A stretch of 64,000 bases of DNA, from NCBI GenBank assembly GCA_025056455.1, contig JANWVY010000001.1, forward strand, positions 319,757 through 383,756, written 5' to 3'. The position numbers and the translations under genes are program-made. Positions within the stretch are counted from its first letter, which is position 1; the number at the start of each line of letters is the position of its first letter. Shown one piece after another: positions 24,800-30,289 of the stretch. Under the pieces are notes generated by a model, which was given only the letters and a program-made list of their open reading frames with translations, did no database searches and was not told where the DNA came from. Source of the DNA: Bryobacteraceae bacterium (GTDB lineage: Bacteria > Acidobacteriota > Terriglobia > Bryobacterales > Bryobacteraceae).

Positions 24800-26224
24800 T
24801 TGCCGAGGCCACGTTTTAGTTCGACTACCGCCAAACTCACACGCCACCAGGCGTCCCCACCAAACAGGCCCGTCCGTTTGCTGGCGATTGACGATGACCC
24901 CAGCTGTTTGGATCTTCTGAGGGCAGCACTCGAACGGGAGGGGTTAGAGATTACAACATCAGAGGATCCGGAAGACGGTTTGACGTTAGTCGAGCGGCAG
25001 CACCCACAAATTGTGCTCGTGGACGTGATGATGCCAAAAATGTCCGGGATGGAGGTGCTAGAGAAGATCCGCCAAATCGAGCCAGCAGCCGACGTCATCC
25101 TCATCACTGCGCACTACTCGACCGATGCAGCCGTGAAGGCGATTCGGGCCGGGGCTTGTGATTATCTGACGAAACCCCTCAATTTGGATGATCTGGAAGC
25201 CCGCGTGGGAGGACTCATCGAGGAGTGGAGCCGGCGCTGGAGAGCGCATCGCTTAGACGAGGAACTCGTCGAGGCCTACCAGTTCCAAGGGATGATCGGC
25301 CGGAGTCCAGCCATGCTGGATGTCTTCACGCGCATCCATCGCGTTGCTCCACACTACCGCACGGCTTTGGTTACAGGACCCACAGGAACGGGAAAAGAAC
25401 TGGTTGCGCGGGCTTTACATGACCGCAGCCCGGTGTCGGGAGGACGTTTCGTGGTTTGTAACTGCGCTGCCATCCCGGAAACCTTGCTTGAAAGCGAATT
25501 ATTCGGACACGTGAAAGGCGCCTTTACGGGCGCCATGCAAGATCGAATCGGCTTGTTCGAGTATGCGCACGGTGGGACCTTGTTCCTGGACGAAATCGGC
25601 GAAATGCCCCTGGCCGCGCAAGCCAAGCTGTTGCGCGCCATCCAACAGCAGGAAGTGCAGCGTCTTGGCTCGCCAGCTTCGAAACAAGTCAACGTGCGAA
25701 TCGTGGCCGCCACGAACCGGGATTTGCGGCAAGCCGTTGCACAGAAGCAATTCCGCGAGGATCTGTTTTTTCGGCTTTCGATGGTAGAGGTTTCCTTACC
25801 GGCGCTGGCGGATCGGATGGAGGACTTACCGCTGCTCATCCGCCATTTCCTCCACAAGGCGTGCCAGCAGTTTGGCAAGGAGATCAACGGCCTGAGCCGC
25901 CAGGCCGAAGCGATTCTCACCCGGTACGGCTGGCCAGGCAACATCCGGGAGCTGCAAAATGTCATCGAGTATGCAGTGATGGTGGCAGAGCGGGAAGAAA
26001 TCCAGCGACAGGATTTACCAGAATATTTTCTTCGCCCGGAAACCCGCCTGGAAGCCGAATCCAGGTGGTTGACACTCGACCAGATGCAGCGCCGGTATGC
26101 GCGCGAGGTGGTGGAAGCCATGGGCGGCGATAAGGGGAAAGCGGCCGCACTTCTTGGCGTGAGCCGGGCTACCGTTTACCGGTTGATTGGGGAGCCCGAA
26201 AGCGAGCCCGTCAACAAGCACTAG
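24800..26224 (+). CDS. NtrC-family sigma-54-dependent response regulator
   Basis: 474 residues. The receiver domain (about 25-140) has an acidic DDD cluster at 31-33 and phospho-acceptor Asp 75 in VLVDVMMP. An AAA+ domain follows with Walker A GPTGTGKE near 193 and ESELFGHVKGAFTGA, whose GAFTGA loop near 240 contacts sigma-54. It also carries GGTLFLDEIGEMP, the arginine region FREDLFFRLS, and a Fis-type helix-turn-helix at the C-terminus (KGKAAALLGVSRATVYRLIG). It activates sigma-54 promoters when phosphorylated. The start is a TTG at 24800 behind GAGAGGGA; no ATG exists before the receiver domain. It opens the operon whose last gene is a histidine kinase, its likely partner. Confidence 0.94.
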   Translation: MPRPRFSSTTAKLTRHQASPPNRPVRLLAIDDDPSCLDLLRAALEREGLEITTSEDPEDGLTLVERQHPQIVLVDVMMPKMSGMEVLEKIRQIEPAADVILITAHYSTDAAVKAIRAGACDYLTKPLNLDDLEARVGGLIEEWSRRWRAHRLDEELVEAYQFQGMIGRSPAMLDVFTRIHRVAPHYRTALVTGPTGTGKELVARALHDRSPVSGGRFVVCNCAAIPETLLESELFGHVKGAFTGAMQDRIGLFEYAHGGTLFLDEIGEMPLAAQAKLLRAIQQQEVQRLGSPASKQVNVRIVAATNRDLRQAVAQKQFREDLFFRLSMVEVSLPALADRMEDLPLLIRHFLHKACQQFGKEINGLSRQAEAILTRYGWPGNIRELQNVIEYAVMVAEREEIQRQDLPEYFLRPETRLEAESRWLTLDQMQRRYAREVVEAMGGDKGKAAALLGVSRATVYRLIGEPESEPVNKH

Positions 26225-26274: not shown

Positions 26275-26694
26275 ATGGAAGGTAGTTACACGATGAACGG
26301 CGCCGAACAGGAGTTGCGAGGAGCGGCGCAGCAGTCGGGTGCGGGGAACGTAGATAAGATTCGAGAGATTCTTTTTGGCGCACAAATGCGCGACTACGAG
26401 AGTCGTTTCCGCCAGCTCGAGGAGCTCATGGAACGCACCGCCAACGACATCAAGGAATCCACCCGCCGGCGCGTCGAGGATTTAGAGCGGTTCTTTCAAA
26501 GCGAGATCCGGGCGCTGGAAGGGCGTTTGAAGATCGAGCGGGAGGAACGTGTCTCAGGCCACCAACAGAGCATGGAGGAGTTGCGAAAGCTTGGTGAGAC
26601 GATGCACGCCCGTTTGAACGAACTGGGCGAACAGGTGACCCCCAGTCCCACCGCGATCTGCGGCGGGAAATCCTCGATCAGTCCAAGCGCCTAG
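26275..26694 (+). CDS. Coiled-coil protein, truncated by a frameshift
   Basis: 139 residues as read, with a strong start (AGGAGGTC ahead of the ATG). From about residue 30 it is a continuous heptad-like helix (YESRFRQLEELMERTANDIK, then RRVEDLERFFQSEIRALEGR). At residue 122, in a run of five C (26639-26643), the frame changes: the present frame gives a non-helical tail and stops at 26694. One extra C would restore a helix continuing to 26885, for about 203 residues. This is either a true loss of function, a sequencing or assembly error, or a slippage site. It sits 50 bp after the activator gene and upstream of the OmpA-like gene, so a structural or adaptor role in this system is likely (inference). 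Confidence 0.7.
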   Translation: MEGSYTMNGAEQELRGAAQQSGAGNVDKIREILFGAQMRDYESRFRQLEELMERTANDIKESTRRRVEDLERFFQSEIRALEGRLKIEREERVSGHQQSMEELRKLGETMHARLNELGEQVTPSPTAICGGKSSISPSA

Positions 26695-26885
26695 ACGACG
26701 AAATTCAAAACGCTCGGGAGCAACTGAGCACCTCTCTCGAACGAAGAGCGCAAGAACTCAATCAAAACAAGACTGACCGTAGCGCGCTCGCCGCGATGTT
26801 GACCGACATTGCGATGCGCTTGAGCGGGGAATTCAAAATTCCTGGTCTCGACAACCCGGCCAACTCGCCCGGCGCTACGAGCTAG
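26640..26885 (+). pseudogene. Out-of-frame C-terminal part of the coiled-coil protein
   Basis: Read in the frame starting at 26652, this gives RDLRREILDQSKRLDDEIQN and further coiled coil (AREQLSTSLERRAQELNQNK), then LAAMLTDIAMRLSGEFKIPG and a stop at 26883-26885. The composition and heptad pattern continue the upstream coding region exactly, so it is the tail of the same gene displaced by one base. Confidence 0.7.
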
Positions 26886-27093: not shown

Positions 27094-28674
27094 ATGTCGG
27101 TCGTAAGCCCGCTCCGGCAACCGATGCCCCCAGATGAGAATATGTCTGGGAGCACGGTGGGTCCCACATCCGAGGCGGATTTCGAGACGCTGCGGAACCT
27201 TCTACTCGGGGAAGAATGGGTCGATCTGAATGTTCTCCGCAAGCGTCTTCGGGATCCAGAGCTCCATGCCCACGACCTTAGCCTTGTCTTAGCGAAGGCC
27301 ATCGTTCGCGCCTCCCAGCGTGACACCAAGCTGCGCTCGGCCCTGCTACCGGTGGTTGAAGATGCAATTCGGATTTCGGTTCAGCGCGACCCGAAGGTGC
27401 TCGCCAATTTGATCTATCCCGCTATTGGTGGGGCCCTTCTGAAGTCAGTGGCTTCGCTGCTTGAGGAGAAGCTAGAAGCTCTCAATATGGTGGTGGAGCA
27501 GAGCTTCACTCTGCGCGGTCTGCAGTGGCGGGTCGAGGCCTGGCGCACGGGTAAAACCGTGGGTGAGATTGCCATGCTACGGAGCCTTCTCTTCCGCGTG
27601 GAGCATGTCCTTCTCATTGATCCCCGAACTGGTTTACTGCTCGCTCGCCGGTCGGCGCCGGGCGCCAAGATCCAAGACCCAGACATGATGTCGGGCATGT
27701 TAACGGCCATCCGGGACTTCGTGGCCGACAGTTTCGGTGAGCCTCAAAATCAAGACCTGCAGACAGTACAAGTGGGCGAATTTCGTTTGTGGATCGAACA
27801 TGGACCGCTGGCGATGCTCGTCGGGGTGGTCCGTGGTCCAGCGCCCGTGGAACTTCGAAAGGTGTTTCGTCAAGCCCTCCAAGAGATCCATGCGCAGTTT
27901 GGAACGGCGCTCGCCGAATACCGTGGAGGCGATGTGTCGTCCTTTGTTGCGGCTGAGTCAACCTTAGAGCGGTGTCTGATGGGTACGGCCCCAGCCACTG
28001 CCACCCCACCCAAATACCGGCTGTGGCTGGCCTTAGCTGGACTTGGATTAGCTTTCTTGTTTGGCTACTGGGGCTTTCGTGAAGGACAACACCGGCGCTC
28101 GATGGAAATCGCTCAACAACTGAATCAGGAACCTGGAATTGTTGTCACTCAAATGGAACGCCGCGATGGCAAGCTTCAGATCTCAGGTTTCCGCGATCCG
28201 TTGGCCAGCGACCCTTCCGCAATTCTAAGAGCGCGCGGTTTACCCGAAAACAGCTTCCAGCTCAGCCTACGCGAGTTCGAGTCGGGGGAACCTTCCCTCA
28301 TAGCCCGGCGACAGCGGGCAGCCCACCGGGAATGGCTGGCGAATCTGAGTATCTTGTTTGAGGAGAATTCAACGGCGATCTCCCCGCTTGCGGTCACCCA
28401 ACTCGAGGAAGTGGCCAAACGTCTAAAAACAATTTTCAAGGACCGTCCCCCCGCTCAGCCGGTGATCGTTTACGGCAGCGCCAACGGCACTGGCGCCACC
28501 AACCGATCGCTTGCCGAAGCCCGCGCCGTGGCCATTGTAAACTTGCTCGCAGATCTGGGAGTTCCCCGCCAATGGTTTCAGGTCAGCTTCCGCCTTTCTG
28601 AACCGTCTGGCGACAATCCAACTCAACGCAGGTTGGCCCGCCGTGTTTACTTCAAGCTGGAAGAAGAGCCATGA
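27094..28674 (+). CDS. Membrane protein with longin/roadblock-like domain and OmpA-like C-terminus
   Basis: 526 residues. The N-terminal helical part (about 30-160) has VEDAIRISVQRDPKVLANLI and LYPAIGG-type segments, as I recall from cyanobacterial OmpA-type proteins linked to small GTPases. The middle domain (about 168-250) reads VLLIDPRTGLLLARR and SGMLTAIRDFVADSF, a pattern like longin/roadblock folds. One transmembrane helix (about 308-328, LWLALAGLGLAFLFGYWGF) is followed by a linker and an OmpA-like domain (about 418-526) with NRSLAEARAVAIVNLLADLG. In that domain the usual peptidoglycan-binding Asp (HTD) is replaced by SAN, while the Arg of the RA motif remains. AGGAGGAG precedes the ATG at 27094. 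Its stop overlaps the GTPase start by 4 bp, so the middle domain may regulate that GTPase (inference). Confidence 0.8.
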   Translation: MSVVSPLRQPMPPDENMSGSTVGPTSEADFETLRNLLLGEEWVDLNVLRKRLRDPELHAHDLSLVLAKAIVRASQRDTKLRSALLPVVEDAIRISVQRDPKVLANLIYPAIGGALLKSVASLLEEKLEALNMVVEQSFTLRGLQWRVEAWRTGKTVGEIAMLRSLLFRVEHVLLIDPRTGLLLARRSAPGAKIQDPDMMSGMLTAIRDFVADSFGEPQNQDLQTVQVGEFRLWIEHGPLAMLVGVVRGPAPVELRKVFRQALQEIHAQFGTALAEYRGGDVSSFVAAESTLERCLMGTAPATATPPKYRLWLALAGLGLAFLFGYWGFREGQHRRSMEIAQQLNQEPGIVVTQMERRDGKLQISGFRDPLASDPSAILRARGLPENSFQLSLREFESGEPSLIARRQRAAHREWLANLSILFEENSTAISPLAVTQLEEVAKRLKTIFKDRPPAQPVIVYGSANGTGATNRSLAEARAVAIVNLLADLGVPRQWFQVSFRLSEPSGDNPTQRRLARRVYFKLEEEP

Positions 28675-29165
28675 CGTATGCCAAGGTGTGTCTGATCGGC
28701 GCTCCCGGGGTCGGCAAAACCAGTTTGGTGAAACGATTCGTAGATCAGATTTTCGACGAGCGCTATCTCACAACGGTGGGCGTAAAGGTGGATAAGAAAA
28801 CGTTGCGTGTTGAAGCACGCGACCTCACGCTGATGATTTGGGATTTAGCGGGAGAAGACGACTCCGAAAGCATTCCCCTCAAATACGTCCGCGGAGCCGC
28901 GGCCTACATTTTGGTGGCCGATGGTTGCCGTCCACAGACATTCGAAAAAGCAGAGCAGATGCGCCAGCGCATCGACCATGAGATTGGTCCGTTGCCTTTC
29001 GTGGGTGCCGTCAACAAAAGCGACCTTGCAGAATCTTGGGATCAGCCTGCCGTTCGGCGGTATTTGCCGCAATGGGGCGCCCTGTGTACCAGCGCAAAGA
29101 CGGGCGCCGGCGTCGAAAAGCTGTTTCAGGAAATCGCCAGACGAGCGCTTTCGGCTTTGCCATGA
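28671..29165 (+). CDS. Ras/Rab-like small GTPase
   Basis: 164 residues, a bare G domain. Motifs are G1 GAPGVGKT (10-17), the switch I Thr pair in YLTTVGVK (34-35), G3 WDLAGE (57-62), G4 NKSD (115-118) and G5 TSAKTG (140-145). The order and spacing are those of Rab/Ras-like bacterial GTPases. The residue equal to the catalytic Gln of Ras (DTAGQ) is Glu 62, so intrinsic hydrolysis may be slow or need a partner. There is no C-terminal Cys for lipid attachment. It overlaps the OmpA-like gene upstream and the kinase downstream by 4 bp each, so all three are translated together. Membrane recruitment through the OmpA-like protein is plausible (inference). Confidence 0.92.
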   Translation: MTYAKVCLIGAPGVGKTSLVKRFVDQIFDERYLTTVGVKVDKKTLRVEARDLTLMIWDLAGEDDSESIPLKYVRGAAAYILVADGCRPQTFEKAEQMRQRIDHEIGPLPFVGAVNKSDLAESWDQPAVRRYLPQWGALCTSAKTGAGVEKLFQEIARRALSALP

Positions 29166-30289
29166 CTGTTACCCCGCCGGACCTCTTGCAAGCTCTGGAG
29201 ATGGTTGCCTTCCACTATGAAGAAGGAACACTCCGGTTGTACGAGCCTGCTGCTGGCTGGGTCGACGATTTTTTCAAGCGGGGGACCGATCCGCTGGAGG
29301 CATTTCCCTTCCTCGAGGCCTTTCTTTTGGAGGCGCGTGAGCATTGGGAGTCCAAGGCTTCCGGCTGTTGCCGGTCGGGAATTTGGACACAGAAGGACCG
29401 TAACGGAAGCGAACGTAGCCTTGCAGCCGCGGCGACGCGCATCGCGGGCGAACGGGCGCTTTTGGTCTGGCAGGCCCATCACGAGCACCAGCAGCGCCAG
29501 CGTGTGATGCAGGCGTTGCGAGATAACCGAGCTGCCTATGAAGAACTGGCCCTGCGCGGCAAGGAGCTCGAGCGGTTGAACCGGATGAAAAGCAGCTTCA
29601 TTGCCAGCGTGAGCCATGAGCTGCGCACACCCTTGAACGCCATCCTGGGCTTTTCAACTCTCCTGGTTCGTGGCAAAGCCGGCGAGTTGAATCCGAAGCA
29701 AGCTAGCTACGTGAGCCACATTCATACCGCGGCCACCCACCTGCTGGAACTCGTCAACGATGTGCTGGACTTGTCGCGGGCCGAGGCGGGTACAACCCCT
29801 CTTGAATGCCAGTGGTTTTCGTTTGGACAGCTACTTGAGGAAATTCTTCCTGTCGTACAGCCCTTGGCCACAACCGCCAAAATTGAACTTGCCGCCGGTG
29901 GCGACGAGGATCTCCTGATTTACGCCGACCGTCTCCGGTGCAAACAAATCCTCAATAATCTGTTGAGCAACGCCATCCGGTTTACGCCCAAAGGCGGCCG
30001 GGTGAGTATCACGGCTGAACAGCACGAAACAACACTGACTTTCACCGTAGCTGACACGGGAGTGGGAATTCCCGCTGAGGAACACGAGAGGATCTTTGAA
30101 CCTTATCACCAACTGCCCCAACGAGGTGGAGAGTATCCCCGCGGCACGGGCCTTGGGCTGGCGATTGTGAAAAAGTTCGTCGAGCAGCACGGCGGCAGGG
30201 TGTGGGTGGAAAGCGCGCCGGGCCAGGGCAGCCGGTTTCGGGTTGAGCTGCCTCAACCGCCAAAGAGTGCGGCCTTCGTTCAGTCCTGA
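29162..30289 (+). CDS. Soluble sensor histidine kinase
   Basis: 375 residues with no membrane segment. The N-terminal 125 residues are an unrecognised sensor-like region starting LLQALEMVAFHYEEGTLRLY. A coiled linker follows, then the dimerisation/phospho-acceptor helix SFIASVSHELRTPLN with His 152. The HATPase domain has the N box NNLLSNAIRFTPKGG, the G1 box DTGVGIP and the G2 box GTGLGLAIVKKFVEQHGG. The ATG at 29162 overlaps the GTPase stop by 4 bp. The cognate regulator is probably the NtrC-like protein at the head of the same operon. Being cytosolic, it may sense the GTPase or the membrane protein rather than an external ligand (inference). A TGAGAC motif overlaps its stop codon. Confidence 0.92.
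   Translation: MTVTPPDLLQALEMVAFHYEEGTLRLYEPAAGWVDDFFKRGTDPLEAFPFLEAFLLEAREHWESKASGCCRSGIWTQKDRNGSERSLAAAATRIAGERALLVWQAHHEHQQRQRVMQALRDNRAAYEELALRGKELERLNRMKSSFIASVSHELRTPLNAILGFSTLLVRGKAGELNPKQASYVSHIHTAATHLLELVNDVLDLSRAEAGTTPLECQWFSFGQLLEEILPVVQPLATTAKIELAAGGDEDLLIYADRLRCKQILNNLLSNAIRFTPKGGRVSITAEQHETTLTFTVADTGVGIPAEEHERIFEPYHQLPQRGGEYPRGTGLGLAIVKKFVEQHGGRVWVESAPGQGSRFRVELPQPPKSAAFVQS

Follow-up and report, generated by a model that had tools for sequence, protein, structure and literature searches.

Prokaryotic Ras-type GTPases have been split into MglA and Rup (Wuichet and Sogaard-Andersen 2014, PMC4316618). As described there for Group 1 Rup, the glutamine (Gln) of the G3 motif is missing, and the gene lies in a four-gene locus encoding a coiled coil, a protein with an unknown domain, Rup, and a signalling output. 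The unknown-domain protein often has a transmembrane (TM) helix followed by an OmpA domain, the output is typically a cyclic di-GMP enzyme or a kinase with an invariant Gln in its N-terminal region, and supply of this Gln in trans was proposed as a possibility. The list of Rup phyla in that paper does not include Acidobacteria, whose single mention in the main text concerns MglA, and by its account no Rup protein had been experimentally characterised as of 2014. No later study of a Rup protein was found in a search limited to open-licence PMC papers. Here we describe such a locus in 64,000 nucleotides (the window) of a Bryobacteraceae bacterium of the Acidobacteriota (GCA_025056455.1, contig JANWVY010000001.1, positions 319,757 to 383,756, forward strand). 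The rup product has glutamate (Glu) in place of the G3 Gln, the output is a histidine kinase whose PAS-like N-terminal domain carries a near-invariant Gln, and the domain of the membrane protein previously called unknown is predicted to be shaped like a longin/Roadblock domain.

The gene order in the window (coiled coil, membrane/OmpA protein, rup, soluble histidine kinase) is that of the Group 1 Rup neighbourhood. The rup product is a single-domain Ras-type GTPase with Ras-like G1 to G5 motifs and no G3 Gln, accompanied by an output with an N-terminal Gln. Since all parts of the Group 1 locus are present in order, the lack of the G3 Gln is a trait already published, to which this GTPase adds a member; the first-pass annotation, made from the DNA alone, had noted a small GTPase with Glu in place of the catalytic Gln, in agreement with both the residue and the published description. 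Relative to the Group 1 description in that paper, this analysis adds the longin-like fold, a broader range of outputs, and the locus and genome counts.

The locus resembles the MglA-MglB system in that a bacterial small GTPase has a Roadblock/longin-type partner, here by predicted fold. MglA keeps the G3 Gln (TVPGQ in the MglA-like open reading frames (ORFs) beside Roadblock genes of this phylum), whereas the window GTPase has Glu; MglB stands alone as a small protein that Pfam recognises, whereas the window domain lies inside an OmpA membrane protein and has no sequence match. Rab proteins with TBC GTPase-activating proteins (GAPs) use arginine (Arg) and glutamine fingers (PMC10978497). The likeness to Rab/TBC and to the longin-type guanine nucleotide exchange factors (GEFs) TRAPP and Mon1-Ccz1 lies in Rab being the closest solved sequence, in the proposed partner Gln, and in a longin-fold platform; in contrast to Rab/TBC, the window GTPase has no prenylation cysteine (Cys), no TBC domain was seen, and the proposed Gln sits on the helix after a PAS-like domain. 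The actinobacterial conservon (CvnA-D) is likewise an operon with a histidine kinase, a Roadblock-type protein and a small GTPase. As described in PMC4316618, however, its GTPase belongs to the MglA family, its kinase is a membrane-spanning HAMP kinase and no OmpA protein is named, whereas the window kinase is soluble.

The Rup GTPase and the residue at its G3 position

The features that carry the argument, all on the + strand, are as follows (coordinates in the window).

28671..29165, +, Group 1 Rup small GTPase (ORF translation, Pfam; ATGA overlap with each neighbour)
28842..28856, +, G3 motif DLAGE; the GAA codon of Glu62 is 28854-28856
29162..30289, +, soluble histidine kinase (HisKA and HATPase_c) with a PAS-like N-terminal domain (Pfam, AlphaFold2 (AF2) model, fold matches)
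29510..29512, +, CAG codon of Gln117 in the kinase PAS-like domain (near-invariant column; codon checked)

The rup product of 164 aa has the motifs GAPGVGKT (G1), WDLAGE (G3, in ...MIWDLAGEDD...), NKSD (G4) and SAK (G5). The protein matched Pfam Ras (2.3e-27) and Roc (1.3e-22) and NCBIfam small_GTP, and among solved structures it is closest to Rab proteins (9e-21); rup is therefore genuine, not an ORF arisen by chance. Translation confirmed the position, strand and WDLAGE motif that had been assigned to a Ras/Rab-type GTPase. Glu62 occupies the place of Ras Gln61. Neither of the Rab features DxxGQ and C-terminal prenylation Cys is present. The earlier remark on the missing prenylation Cys is thus upheld, with no Cys near the C-terminus of the window GTPase, and a membrane location that depends on a partner is plausible; across the family, 6 of 110 loci have Cys within the last five residues. 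P-loop position 12 is Pro in the window GTPase and Phe in 85/110 loci. In its own genome the protein matched only itself at E <= 0.001, and PF00071 gave six matches, with rup best and the remaining five weak (3e-4 to 7e-4).

Relatives were taken from near genomes (matches in 9/61, counting the own genome, two of these Roc-like), from a species collection (the best 80 of 544 confirmed loci, chosen by peptide patterns outside G3, which biases the set to close relatives), and from the phylum (21/396 genomes). The multidomain Roc-like loci L008 and L009 and the window copies L001 and L090 were excluded before the GTPase counts. Counts are over 110 loci, window included (105 after removal of 100% identical ones), in which the duplicates L002/L010, L004/L015, L007/L030, L042/L102 and L096/L112 remain between collections. 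Within the best 80 of 544, the nearest titled relative was a Bryobacterales metagenome-assembled genome (Acidobacteriota) at 57% identity.

The Gln after DxxG is missing in 109/110 loci. The G3 residue is Glu in 94, Asp in 4, Ala in 4, Thr in 3, Lys in 3, His in 1 and Gln in 1; in the 46 clusters formed at 60% identity, the numbers are Glu 33, Ala 3, Thr 3, Lys 3, Asp 2, His 1 and Gln 1. The following residue is Asp in 102/110. G15, K16, T17, Y32, W57, D58, G61, V82, D84 and R87 are identical in 110/110 loci, N115 is kept in 108 and D118 in 109. In the genus, rup was found in 5/12 genomes, own included, four with Glu and one (L004) with Asp. On a 73-row tree built with the G3 column removed (a quick tree of the loci found here, with 8/70 inner branches starred and 38 open), the G3 label changed 12 times, against a minimum of 6 and a shuffled mean of 13.9, and was as low in 2/200 shuffles; Glu is therefore clustered but repeatedly changing. 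Judged from these sequences, Glu is common yet not required, and the G3 position tolerates residues unable to act as Gln does.

On the question whether Glu is a lineage trait, the majority and the clustering stand, and a strict lineage trait was rejected, with Asp in the same-genus orthologue and a variable wider family. Variation among close orthologues, named in the first-pass annotation as something that would refute its reading, was thus found in part. Glu had also been expected to slow intrinsic turnover. This was not borne out: the intrinsic GTPase of Ras Q61E is reported as increased (PMC2987813, PMC10515638), whereas in Rac/Rho the Gln-to-Glu change abolishes both intrinsic and GAP-stimulated hydrolysis (PMC12607883), so the effect of Glu depends on context. 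Slow hydrolysis as a consequence of Glu was accordingly rejected, the published results being in conflict.

A near-invariant glutamine in the output proteins

In the aligned N-terminal regions of the protein downstream of rup, one column has Gln in 93/94 rows. After clustering at 40% identity, Gln is kept in 39/40, and the next-best column reaches 35/40. Left out of the 94-row alignment were nine downstream ORFs that on visual inspection seemed non-homologous (L019, L028, L042, L074, L083, L088, L095, L102, L105), and then exact copies. A hidden Markov model (HMM) of the domain, built from selected representatives and run over ORFs, found it in 102/110 loci as 112 domains, two of which (L018, L096) are cut off before the Gln position. 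Gln is present in 107 of the 110 scorable domains, a count that includes the Arg exceptions and duplicates, and in 65/66 representatives. Three proteins have a doubled domain in one frame, with Gln kept in both copies. The genome of L095 has a PAS-like domain with Gln, and L074 and L019 were later found to carry a PAS-like domain with Arg. The Arg domains lie at L074:5784-7565 (the frame after rup) and L019:2424-3101 (the other strand), and Arg there might act differently.

In the AF2 model, kinase residues 1-140 (predicted local distance difference test (pLDDT) 95) form a mixed domain, after which a long helix (106-139) carries Gln117. The fold matches listed are largely PAS/LOV proteins. The label PAS-like is probable and not firm, because the best Z is 8.2 (FixL PAS), near the level of chance matches. 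No Pfam match to the domain was found in 66 members, and mean column identity is 23%. Pfam domains in the 66 representatives were HisKA (23), HATPase_c (23), sigma-54 activator (17), response regulator (9), class III cyclase (4), GGDEF (4), SpoIIE (3), HD (3) and EAL (2); a protein may be counted under more than one domain, and contig ends truncate some of the proteins. Gln is kept across six output kinds (kinase, sigma-54 activator, cyclase, GGDEF, SpoIIE and HD). In Nitrospira and kin, and also in L006 and L101, the domain is fused directly to a sigma-54 AAA+ activator, without a kinase and response regulator. The loci with this fusion in Nitrospira and kin are L021, L024, L027, L029, L040, L045, L049, L052, L055, L057, L062, L064, L065, L077, L081, L082 and L084.

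As Gln is kept while the domain diverges and the output changes, something shared best explains it, and the GTPase is the obvious candidate. We infer from the near-invariant Gln that the kinase PAS-like domain is the partner pointed to for catalysis. Gln117 is probably the Gln of figure 4A in PMC4316618, and its conservation speaks for the published idea of a glutamine supplied in trans. That a Group 1 Rup switch hydrolyses GTP with a Gln from its partner is a reading to which we give about an even chance.

Glu itself might instead work, as a general base like that of Ras Q61E, with self-sufficient hydrolysis and the partner Gln only structural in a linker helix. The faster Ras mutant cited above, the Glu majority and the Asp that nearly always follows it are consistent with this. 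Against it, G3 is Ala, Thr, Lys or His in 11/110 loci, of which 9 retain the membrane protein together with the output Gln; the Gln-to-Glu change kills hydrolysis in Rac/Rho; and the near-invariant partner Gln would be left with an unspecified structural role. We consider such a self-sufficient Glu unlikely.

The membrane protein, co-occurrence and neighbouring genes

The gene that overlaps rup on its upstream side encodes the membrane protein, with these parts.

27094..28674, +, membrane protein of the Rup1 locus: cytosolic part, one predicted TM helix, C-terminal OmpA domain (Pfam OmpA 1.1e-07, hydropathy)
27589..27993, +, predicted longin/Roadblock-like fold inside it (AF2 model, Foldseek and VIA-align)
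28021..28077, +, predicted TM helix (hydropathy maximum, residues 310-328)
28354..28590, +, OmpA domain (Pfam)

The cytosolic part, residues 20-312, was modelled by AF2 with a mean pLDDT of 82. The secondary structure of the model (strands 149-156 and 163-168, helix 177-195, strands 205-208, 211-217 and 222-228, helices 233-256 and 268-275) has the order of a longin fold, namely two strands, a helix, three strands and C-terminal helices. Using Foldseek and VIA-align, model residues 147-281 matched longins and Roadblocks, and the rows shown were longin, Roadblock, adaptor, coatomer, TRAPP and other longin-type proteins. Sec22b aligned with Z 13.8 (121 aligned, 2.4 A) and MglB with Z 11.4 (107 aligned, 2.5 A, 21% identity); other Z values were 13.6 for VAMP7, 12.8 for CPLANE Fuzzy, 12.8 for TRAPP, 12.7 for Ykt6 and 11.1 for Mon1-Ccz1. 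Alignments end at residues 276-284 for longin SNAREs and at 254-257 for the MglB rows, the gap being the second C-terminal helix. An extra C-terminal helix distinguishes longins from Roadblocks (PMC10933270), while 'Longin/Roadblock' is also tabulated as a single class, bacteria included (PMC4917890), and longins are held to derive from MglB-like domains (PMC3521125). The model thus predicts that the domain called unknown in the OmpA protein is shaped like a longin/Roadblock, the usual small-GTPase platform, and this domain is the likelier docking platform for the GTPase. A Trp-Arg pair just ahead of it (residues 145-146, 27526-27531) is kept in 54/55 representatives, the remaining one being gapped; its Arg may be a finger residue or have a structural role.

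Of the 396 phylum genomes, 21 had rup, and exactly these also had the membrane-protein domain; 19 of them, and no genome outside this set, had the PAS-like domain, and at the thresholds used 375 genomes had none of these. The chance of two independent sets of 21 coinciding is about 10^-34.6, a figure to be read with the genomes not being independent and the profiles coming from rup-adjacent copies. The rup genomes without a PAS-like match are G302, where L105 is short, and G366, whose L102 has the same rup sequence as L042, in which 6 kb downstream hold no PAS-like domain. In G086 the genes are split between two contigs: one has rup and a PAS-like protein, the other the membrane protein and a second PAS-like protein, in which the domain is doubled. 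Three genomes, G123:C213 (L096, L112), G278:C101 (L098, L111) and G328 (L104, L113), have two rup genes each but a single membrane-protein domain match; the rup genes of G123 are adjacent, one with an in-frame TAA. Roadblock genes (PF03259) have a far wider spread than rup (76/119 genomes). No PF03259 (MglB Roadblock) match was found in the window neighbours, and the one Roadblock match of the own genome is on contig C22, the window being on C11.

The first-pass annotation had another protein govern the switch and named the soluble middle domain of the neighbouring protein for a test. A predicted GTPase-platform fold speaks for a part of this, whereas the data on catalysis point to the kinase PAS-like domain. 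In its full form, a slow GTPase would be controlled by this middle domain as GAP and/or GEF, like MglB, and no Gln would be supplied in trans. The exact coincidence of domain and rup in 21 genomes fits this. A GAP of the MglB type, however, works by placing the Gln and Arg that belong to the GTPase itself (PMC4316618), and that Gln is missing here; the output Gln would also be unaccounted for. We give control by this domain alone a low probability.

The remaining genes upstream are as follows.

24800..26224, +, NtrC-type sigma-54 response regulator (Pfam Response_reg 2.6e-29, Sigma54_activat 2.4e-68)
26275..26884, +, coiled-coil gene of the Rup1 locus (phmmer relatives; second frame from about 26630)

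The membrane protein, rup and kinase genes overlap successively by ATGA, and relatives of the membrane protein occur in 95/110 loci, window included. The regulator gene stops 50 bases ahead of the coiled-coil gene and, by adjacency, is the likely output partner of the histidine kinase; of the 16 kinase-type loci with large flanks, counting the window, 10 have a receiver/sigma-54 gene. With phmmer, 65 other loci gave relatives of the coiled-coil protein, and in 61 the match lay upstream of rup and on its strand. The coiled-coil gene of the window switches frame near 26630, from a sequencing error or a real lesion, and is uninterrupted in L010 and L015. A promoter and terminator scan gave nothing exceeding shuffled sequence, and none of the ORFs searched was a natural rup-partner fusion. 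In the Mesorhizobium loci (L035, L038, L041, L043, L044 and others), membrane-protein frames are much longer, about 1020 aa in these five and 602-1025 aa in the loci with a whole frame, and a 356-aa output protein is probably a class III cyclase.

The proposed switch and its meaning

The form we favour combines the trans Gln with longin-type exchange. The GTPase would dock on the longin-like domain of the membrane protein, which would be tethered to the inner membrane and, via OmpA, to peptidoglycan. The kinase, through its PAS-like domain, would bind the GTP-loaded GTPase, and the helix of this domain would insert Gln117 into the active site, completing hydrolysis. Binding or hydrolysis would set the state of the kinase, which may then phosphorylate the NtrC-type regulator whose gene lies upstream. 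Other species have a sigma-54 activator, cyclase, GGDEF, SpoIIE or HD module attached to the same N-terminal domain.

Several observations weigh against this proposal. Arg replaces the partner Gln in two domains (L074, L019), and L106 has Met at the column with Gln one place earlier. No PAS-like domain was found in the available DNA of 8/110 loci, among them L042 with 6.0 kb, L083 with 3.3 kb and L088 with 2.8 kb of downstream DNA. L104 carries Gln both at G3 and in the output protein. The residue second in conservation to the partner Gln is found one heptad further along the helix (+7), a spacing that a structural role in a coiled coil would also fit; the +7 residue in the window kinase is Ala, and the heptad reading of the helix is ambiguous. 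On the side of the platform, no Pfam longin or Roadblock match at 0.01 was found in 55 members of the longin-like domain, hhalign against 25 Acidobacteriota Roadblock ORFs gave about 2% probability (controls 0.2-1.0%), and the longin-like profile against PDB sequences gave three weak matches only, all to the helical part. L019 and L068 are also without the membrane protein, and the profiles behind the genome counts, made from rup-adjacent copies, may miss remote orphans.

Atypical, scarcely hydrolysing GTPases exist, and with its G3 Gln missing the window GTPase might be one of these, switched by nucleotide exchange or protein turnover with the PAS-like domain only reading the GTP state, but the kept nucleotide and Mg motifs (G15, K16, T17, D58 and G61 in every locus, N115 and D118 in nearly all) and the conserved partner Gln make this very unlikely.

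These data narrow the 2014 speculation to one Gln in one helix and supply a candidate docking domain whose predicted fold is the one that holds Rab, Rag and MglA GTPases. It is possible, though we hold it somewhat doubtful, that bacteria have a complete Rab-type switch, made of a Rab-like GTPase, a membrane-anchored longin platform, and a portable PAS-like domain that lends a catalytic Gln to turn the GTPase off, or reads it. If so, a single sensor-domain residue would couple the hydrolysis of GTP to whichever output is attached, of which there are at least six kinds. The pairing of Rab and longin would then occur in bacteria too, beyond Asgard archaea and eukaryotes, and would bear on the origin of Rab-type switching and its platforms.
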